A stretch of DNA of 33,833 nt from Caulobacteraceae bacterium. GTDB taxonomy: Bacteria > Pseudomonadota > Alphaproteobacteria > Caulobacterales > Caulobacteraceae. The stretch is from NCBI GenBank assembly GCA_947475845.1, contig CANJMO010000026.1, forward strand, positions 1-33,833. The letters are read 5' to 3'. Shown here in pieces: positions 31,200-31,652 of the stretch (the stretch's first letter is position 1; each line of letters starts with the position of its first letter). Below the pieces are notes generated by a model. The model made no database searches. It was not told where the DNA came from and saw only the letters and a list, made by a program, of their open reading frames with translations. The translations under genes and the position numbers were made by a program.

Positions 31200-31242
31200 T
31201 AAGTCGCATTTCAGACTTGGGGCTGTGTCTGCACGCCAAACA

Positions 31243-31280
31243 CCGCTCATCCCCGCGAAAGCGGGGACCCAGGCTTTTTA
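31243..31280 (+). repeat. Left 38-bp inverted repeat with internal GAAA-loop hairpin
   Basis: Perfect inverted match to 31569-31606. Inside, TCCCCGC (31250-31256) and GCGGGGA (31261-31267) form a 7-bp stem closed by a GAAA tetraloop. The inner end TTTTTA carries the TAA stop of the GIY-YIG gene read on the minus strand (31280-31278). Confidence 0.95.
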
Positions 31281-31565
31281 AGATTCAATATCGAGCGCCA
31301 AGTCGCGCCAGCCTGGGTTGAACCGCTCAATCAGTTCGATCTTCCACTGTCGATTCCACTTCTTCATCGCCCGTTCACGAGCAAAAGCCCCCGCGCGCGT
31401 CTGGAACTGCTCGTAGTGGACAAGCATGGTCACCCCATATTCGGCCGTGAACCCCGGAATAGCCTTAGCTTTATGCTGGGCGATGCGACGGTCCAGGCTA
31501 TCGGTCATGCCGATGTAGAGCGTGCCGTTGCGCTGACTGGCCAAGATGTAGGTGTAGAAGGCCAT
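31278..31565 (-). CDS. Single-domain GIY-YIG endonuclease (COG2827/UPF0213-like)
   Basis: 95 residues from ATG 31565. The GIY-YIG signature appears as YTYILAS near residues 4-10 and LYIG at 16-19, followed by the catalytic Arg26 in DSLDRRIAQHK and the metal-binding Glu64 in FARERAMKKW. The family cuts or nicks DNA; small stand-alone members are common and little studied. There is no Shine-Dalgarno sequence, because the 38-bp repeat occupies the leader, and its hairpin lies about 18-35 nt before the start. A reading from 31634 runs through the repeat and yields an HPRESGDP peptide, typical of translated palindromic repeats; it is probably not native. The gene is the only content between the two repeats. 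Confidence 0.88.
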   Translation of the reverse strand: MAFYTYILASQRNGTLYIGMTDSLDRRIAQHKAKAIPGFTAEYGVTMLVHYEQFQTRAGAFARERAMKKWNRQWKIELIERFNPGWRDLALDIES

Positions 31566-31568
31566 CGG

Positions 31569-31606
31569 TAAAAAGCCTGGGTCCCCGCTTTCGCGGGGAT
31601 GAGCGG
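31569..31606 (-). repeat. Right 38-bp inverted repeat with internal hairpin
   Basis: Perfect inverted copy of 31243-31280. The hairpin is TCCCCGC (31582 to 31588 region) against GCGGGGA (31593-31599 region) with the loop between. It lies 3 nt upstream of the GIY-YIG start codon and contains an ATG (31599) in frame with the RsmC-like gene to its right. Confidence 0.95.
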
Positions 31607-31652
31607 AATTGGGTGTGGTACGAGGCCTGCACATAAAAGCAGCGAGACATCC

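Follow-up and report, generated by a model that had tools for sequence, protein, structure and literature searches.

A GIY-YIG nuclease gene between inverted CGTC-type REPs, a probable mobile REPtron of Caulobacteraceae

In the RAYT REPtron of GTAG-tagged REPs, as presented in the sections of Di Nocera et al. 2013 available to us (PMC3733652), a gene lies between inverted short hairpins tagged at one end, and these ends vary between elements and match across the gene; genomes also carry many gene-less dimers or REPINs (PMC3733652 and the accessible part of PMC3116915). The CGTC-tagged REPs, among them dRS3 of Neisseria and RPE-6 and RPE-4 of Rickettsia, share a 4-nt loop, a CCA-like tail and an arrangement as outward dimers, and appear from the same sections to be without a dedicated transposase (PMC3733652). 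Here we analyse a 364-bp unit of a Caulobacteraceae genome in which a GIY-YIG nuclease gene is enclosed by two inverted CGTC-type REPs. Sequence comparison indicates that this unit is probably an autonomous mobile REPtron in which the RAYT has been replaced. The mobile-element reading had been advanced in an earlier note on this DNA, and the comparisons that could have told against it came out largely in its favour, in the recurrence of the layout, the filled and element-free junctions, the association of gene and repeat, and the gene-less dimers.

The REP-bounded gene of the window

The window, the whole 33,833-nt stretch analysed, is one contig of a 2.65-Mb genome. The GIY-YIG nuclease gene occupies 31278..31565 on its minus strand and encodes 95 residues comprising the catalytic domain only. 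PF01541 GIY-YIG is the sole Pfam family matched (E 3e-15; none other at E 0.001), and the score of 56.7 bits against a curated cut-off of 22.6 places the protein in the GIY-YIG superfamily. Y17, G19, R27, H31, E64 and N83 do not vary across 24 aligned sequences, one of which is the window protein; the Tyr, Arg, Glu and Asn of this set (Y17, R27, E64, N83) are what we take to be the GIY-YIG catalytic residues, and the catalytic Glu is conserved in at least 90% of 63 sequences. The best named match to the protein in a search of genome contigs is from a Caulobacteraceae bacterium (73%). The neighbouring genes, named from their ORF translations, are presumably katE (minus strand) on one side and a methyltransferase gene on the other.

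Identical 38-bp inverted repeats abutting the coding region, each with a 7-bp stem and a GAAA loop, had been described in the earlier note, and all of these particulars hold. The left terminal REP (31243..31280, plus strand) has its tag CCGCTC outward and its tail CCCAGGCTTTTTA inward, and folds into a 7-bp stem (31250-31256/31261-31267) closed by the loop GAAA (31257-31260), with a DNA folding energy of -9.3 kcal/mol (z -2.46); the right terminal REP (31569..31606, minus strand) is its identical inverted copy, likewise tag outward, 38 nt being the longest inverted match between the arms. The gene's stop codon (31278-31280) lies inside the left arm and its start codon (31565-31563) 3 nt from the right arm, and the translations HPRESGDP and IPAKAGTQ, also quoted previously, are present in the window frames. 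Beyond the REPs, the outer left flank (31232..31242) is an imperfect complement of the outer right flank (31607..31617), and the resulting 49-nt arms (31232-31280/31569-31617) are 92% complementary, the top of 1029 inverted pairs in the window; these outer flanks are possibly target sequence rather than part of the element. The 20-nt hairpin core, allowing up to three mismatches, occurs at five sites in the genome, two of them at the GIY-YIG gene, and at none in the reversed control; chance therefore does not account for its paired occurrence at a single gene. A wider REP pattern gives only six matches in this genome.

The plan of tag, 7-bp stem, 4-nt loop and CCA-like tail, with tags outward, is that of the CGTC REPs. 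The window tag reads GCTC and not the CGTC, TGTC or CCTC that define the CGTC superfamily, and REPs flanking homologues in other taxa carry GTCA-type tags, CGTC among them. Compared with CGTC family 1, which has an 8-bp stem beginning A-T, the window REP has the 4-nt loop and the CCCA tail, but its stem is 7 bp, the first A facing a C. Judged by this layout the window hairpins are variants of CGTC-tagged REPs, a superfamily that the earlier note did not name, and the GCTC tag and mismatched first stem pair make them a derived form.

An outward ATG is present in the REP tag at both ends (31250, 31599), so that open frames of the katE-side and methyltransferase neighbours run into the REPs; start codons called inside the window REPs may be artefacts or genuine starts supplied by the REPs. 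Rfam gave only two matches at the window locus, both far below the gathering score. Phage records contain no homologue of the GIY-YIG protein at E 1e-6, and there is thus no sign of phage cargo there.

Recurrence of the layout and agreement of the ends

At E 1e-10 homologues were found in 159 of the 249 family genomes searched, with 339 matches in total. Seventy loci (L008-L077), comprising 30 as returned and 40 regions of 10-20 kb picked from the listed matches for contig room with their flanks then unseen, yielded 118 REPs with a strict finder, against 2 in the reversed control, and for 96 of these the gene is no more than 400 nt away; in the 40 long regions the figure is 58 of 77. A set of 110 loci (L078-L187), drawn from all bacteria and from a phylum sample, has an inverted match of 14 nt or more between the 5' and 3' flanks in 62 cases, compared with 8 of 220 swapped flanks. 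A looser finder was applied to 189 distinct loci out of 199 (exact duplicates and loci with less than 60 nt per side removed), many of them best matches and not a random draw; outward-tagged REPs stand on both sides of the gene at 89, on one side at 41 and on neither at 59, and the stem is the same on both sides at 72, whereas 362 random positions in the same loci gave both sides once, one side 26 times and matched stems never. For genes of the UPF0213 type of GIY-YIG protein 30 loci were taken, of which 4 proved too short, and none of the other 26 has a REP on either side, a weak control since only 6 of the 26 are in genomes with at least two REPs of the wider pattern.

The plasmid collection has homologues in 32 records (E 1e-10). 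Sixteen of these were read by eye, and hairpins stand on both sides in 14 and on a single side in the other two (L312, L357). Stem types vary from genus to genus among the records read (Rhizobium CIAT894, Shinella, Azospirillum, Sphingobium, Sinorhizobium, Neorhizobium, Novosphingobium, Aeromonas, Planktothrix, Spirosoma and Neisseria gonorrhoeae); in the N. gonorrhoeae record the GIY-YIG gene adjoins repeats of the CGTC-1/dRS3 type. Homologues therefore recur across phyla in the REP-gene-REP layout, and the link between repeat and gene on which the earlier note's reading depended is found across genomes and in many taxa. Because this pairing recurs in many bacterial groups, the GIY-YIG enzyme is the best candidate for spreading those REPs.

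Some observations on individual loci may be recorded here. The cyanobacterial homologue in a Planktothrix plasmid (L356) has an MmeI-type enzyme on one side and DISARM drmA on the other, and is flanked by GTCATTCTGAG-type palindromes. The unit at L041 and L274 has, nested in it or beside it, a further REP-like pair of a different type (TCTTCCCGGCGAAGG...), which at L274 occupies the expected place of the gene.

The stems vary among elements, yet agree across the gene. The left loop equals the right in 59 of the 72 loci with matched stems, where permutation within stem type gives a mean of 26.6 and reached the observed value in 0 of 5000 trials. Single genomes illustrate the same agreement, as one (G229) has three units of three stem/loop types, each self-matched (L014, L191, L192), and another (G236) two, again each self-matched (L057, L061). 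Of 339 REPs whose 7-bp stems pair perfectly, 325 have loops that conform to G-N-A-N, counts inflated by copies inherited together, against 47 of 200 other 7-bp hairpins in the same DNA, and the fourth base is free (A 150, G 117, C 39, T 33). RNA GNRA loops require A at that position, and the wider rule for DNA mini-hairpins is cGNABg. Mini-hairpins of DNA with GAA loops, GCGAAGC for instance, are extraordinarily stable according to the accessible part of PMC6582339. A folded DNA strand would on this evidence be what the enzyme recognises. In one genome that has GIY-YIG homologues (G342) the pattern matches mostly bear the complementary loop CTTC, against the GNAN rule.

These counts bear on one alternative, in which a small gene merely chances to lie between ordinary terminators or hairpins that stabilise RNA. 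REPs do often lie downstream of coding regions, as stated in the available sections of PMC3733652, but a simple sigma-70 and terminator scan of the window locus returned no site, matched stems are absent from the 362 random positions and REPs from the 26 UPF0213 loci, the free fourth loop base is unlike RNA GNRA, and the likeness of paralogues is confined to the REP-bounded stretch, as described below. We consider such a coincidence highly implausible.

Copies, element-free junctions and REP number

Copies within a genome were compared between the outer REP edges and over 150 nt outside them, with the same aligner throughout, unrelated 150-mers giving a mean identity of 33% and a maximum of 47%. 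One pair (L017/L058, in G226) is 95% identical inside, and 27% (left) and 49% (right) outside, the likeness ending at the REP edge on the left but not on the right, where BLAST still aligns the two copies for about 39 nt beyond the REP. A second (L010/L188, in G241) is 87% identical inside and 41% and 36% outside, and a third (L188/L189) 73% inside and 27% and 38% outside. Other same-genome pairs tried were 36-71% identical inside, length differences counted, or had no recognisable edge. In sequence, then, the best-matched copies in a genome resemble each other between the REPs and have little or no likeness beyond them, and we infer that the REP-bounded units are mobile.

Filled and element-free versions of one junction point the same way. 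In a genus within the window's family, dnaN and recF are both present in 27 of 30 genomes fetched, with the GIY-YIG gene between them in 4 of the 27 (three with clear REPs in the ends of the unit, the fourth with a variant) and without it in 23; at three element-free loci just 32 bp separate the two genes. Six element-free dnaN-recF loci (L209, L212, L216, L227, L228, L230) contain another inverted repeat, of GAGTGGCGAG-like units, and palindromic inserts may have a hot spot here. In Azospirillum lipoferum 4B the sufB-sufC junction holds a REP dimer, the gene and a second REP dimer (about 508 bp), where A. ramasamyi, A. oryzae, strain B510 and A. thermophilum are element-free with 55 to 129 bp; the same junction in Shinella PSBB067 (L361) has a GIY-YIG unit with a REP type unlike that of Azospirillum (L314). 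The element-free junctions have diverged, so they supply no base-exact empty site and the cut point is not exactly fixed.

The comparison of strains with and without the unit, proposed previously for this locus, thus succeeded in the same-family genus and in Azospirillum but yielded no empty site for the window copy, whose two flanks fall on different contigs in each of the two same-genus genomes searched. A joined-flank search with five Caulobacter-type copies found none, synteny or intergenic sequence being too diverged; read by eye, one of its sites (L274) has the REP pair without the gene and another (L269) an apparent decayed gene. For Rhizobium CIAT894 and the Shinella plasmids a search for near-identical empty strains gave, among the matches listed, partial flank matches, mostly of about 80-88% identity, and the source records and their near-identical or 92% relatives were all filled. 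Relatives of the window unit therefore display both copies at unrelated sites and empty sites, the latter short of base precision. As to target duplication, direct repeats at the ends are no better than those of swapped flanks, and one candidate (L185) was set aside as it looks like repeated REP-dimer DNA, not a clean duplication.

The boundaries of the copies also speak to the origin of the layout. REPs might spread as dimers by other means and a GIY-YIG homing gene insert in mid-dimer, the dimer being its target. The REP-gene-REP unit does have the outward-tag layout of the dimers of about 120 nt, some REPs occur in genomes without the gene, and known GIY-YIG homing enzymes cut uninterrupted targets (the accessible part of PMC1564403). 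However, the likeness between copies extends over the entire REP-bounded stretch and falls near background outside it, not inside the dimer, some genes have a complete dimer on each side (L043, L314), and REP number tracks the gene, as set out below. The window gene itself is intergenic, with no intron, intein or split target gene and no second Pfam domain, and so does not qualify as a homing endonuclease gene. We regard insertion by homing as unlikely, and the dimers look instead, from their sequences, like non-autonomous copies of the proposed mobile unit. Among the listed matches REPs are mostly outward pairs, and the 25 readable dimers measure 113-133 nt, 13 having a GIY-YIG gene no more than 400 nt away and the other 12 lying elsewhere; the dimers share the orientation of the gene units and their G-poor outer flank, and one genome (G163) has dozens with a single spacing. 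The earlier note had supposed that the isolated hairpin may exist as non-autonomous copies, and gene-less REP dimers are indeed found in related genomes.

REP number was counted across the family with a 24-nt pattern (reversed control 0), which matched 2586 times in the 159 genomes with the gene and 183 times in the 90 without. The gene is present in 64 of 73 genomes with at least 10 REPs and in 46 of 47 with at least 20, and shuffling gene presence within genera reached the observed REP difference in 0 of 20000 trials. Counting genomes with at least two matches, 63 of 20000 such shuffles reached the observed value, and one genus taken alone (code g22) shows no gene effect on this test. The association has exceptions in both directions, 57 of the 159 gene-bearing genomes having fewer than two REPs and 22 of the 90 gene-less genomes at least two. 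In a phylum sample of 349 genomes, with the wider pattern and kinship ignored, at least two REPs occur in 52 of the 102 gene-bearing genomes and in 32 of the 247 that lack the gene. Very REP-rich genomes include four with a GIY-YIG homologue (G274, with 254 pattern matches in 1.5 Mb, G336, with 725, G308 and G296) and two with no homologue at that threshold (G284, 159 REPs, and G410, 122).

Another alternative has a RAYT or other transposase moving REPs and gene in trans, the nuclease being passenger or helper. It is general knowledge that GIY-YIG chemistry alone does not join DNA, and G163, with its 120 REPs, has a Y1 transposase and a single homologue at E <= 1e-10 (L076) with no REP within 400 nt. 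Against this, the Y1 transposase family PF01797, the one tested, occurs in only 40 of the 249 family genomes and has no match in that of the window, and genomes with at least 10 REPs differ little from the others in Y1 (16/73 versus 24/176, p 0.13) and strongly in GIY-YIG (64/73 versus 95/176, p 2e-7); associations of CGTC REPs with transposase genes are few and fortuitous in the available sections of PMC3733652. By these sequence counts REP number tracks the GIY-YIG gene and not Y1/RAYT transposases, and mobilisation in trans seems improbable to us.

Possible mechanism and known systems

The predicted protein model (pLDDT 94) has UPF0213 as its nearest Foldseek match (E 1.4e-3), followed by UvrC and Slx1 (E above 0.1), and a profile of 63 sequences likewise identifies UPF0213 (PDB 1zg2, 1ywl) as the closest solved fold and sequence (E 2e-7). 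UvrC and Slx1 are nucleases of damaged or branched DNA, and GIY-YIG enzymes in general hydrolyse DNA and do not join strands, so that any copying would lean on the host. From the position of the model near UPF0213 and then UvrC and Slx1 we propose that the nuclease would recognise the REP hairpin in its folded form, single-stranded or cruciform, and cleave beside the tag, at the hairpin foot, whereupon host repair or replication would copy the REP-bounded stretch, either the gene unit or the dimer of about 120 nt, to new sites. In the tree UPF0213 stands on one side of a branch (support 74) and 86 of 170 inner branches are open; the REP-flanked state requires 34 changes, against 44.6 when shuffled, and as the tree is poorly resolved no number of gains or losses of REP flanks is claimed.

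Preferred targets might be hairpin-like, or have one C-rich and one G-rich flank. Summed over 47 gene units, the nine positions outside the left tag, a length chosen after looking, contain 16 G among 423 bases and their mirrored counterparts at the right end 15 C among 423, and the dimers follow the same trend in composition. The complementarity of the outer flanks is 10.84 against 9.55 for swapped flanks (64 elements; permutation W 22, 0/5000 as high), a small effect, perhaps partly of base composition, which we therefore keep as a hint only.

CGTC REPs occur widely in proteobacteria, and the question of their mobiliser gains a testable answer from a gene found travelling with them across phyla. 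Such a mobiliser would extend the REP/RAYT idea to an unrelated class of enzyme and offer a 95-residue nuclease that may read DNA hairpins. A broader reading, to which we give even chances, is that small stand-alone GIY-YIG nucleases are the missing mobilisers of CGTC REPs at large, forming a new class of element that is transposase-less and relies on cutting folded DNA in a structure-specific way. It would embrace dRS3 of Neisseria and rhizobial, cyanobacterial and Bacteroidota relatives, perhaps also the Rickettsia RPEs, with hairpins and dimers both spread and hairpin-like or C-rich/G-rich targets preferred. Among the matches listed in our literature search, with subscription papers and preprints outside its scope, no paper makes the GIY-YIG-REP link, nor did a term search find it in the accessible portions of RepRanger (PMC12306157) and a GIY-YIG survey (PMC1564403); priority elsewhere is possible.

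The unit resembles the RAYT REPtron, so far as the available text of PMC3733652 and PMC3116915 describes it, in its gene between inverted hairpins tagged at one end, in ends that vary between elements and match across the gene, and in the many gene-less dimers, but differs in having a GIY-YIG nuclease and not an HUH tyrosine transposase, and CGTC-type repeats and not GTAG; the window gene matches PF01541 only, and PF01797 is absent from its genome. UPF0213 genes differ from the window family in that none of 26 loci is REP-flanked. With GIY-YIG homing endonucleases of the I-TevI type the family shares the catalytic fold (a weak Foldseek match to 1ln0) and, if mobile, selfish spread, but it is intergenic, consists of PF01541 only and has its own inverted hairpin ends. 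The 4-nt loop, CCA-like tail and outward dimers are those of the published CGTC REPs, for which our source on Rickettsia is the available part of PMC3733652 alone; unlike them, the REPs described here are linked with a gene.
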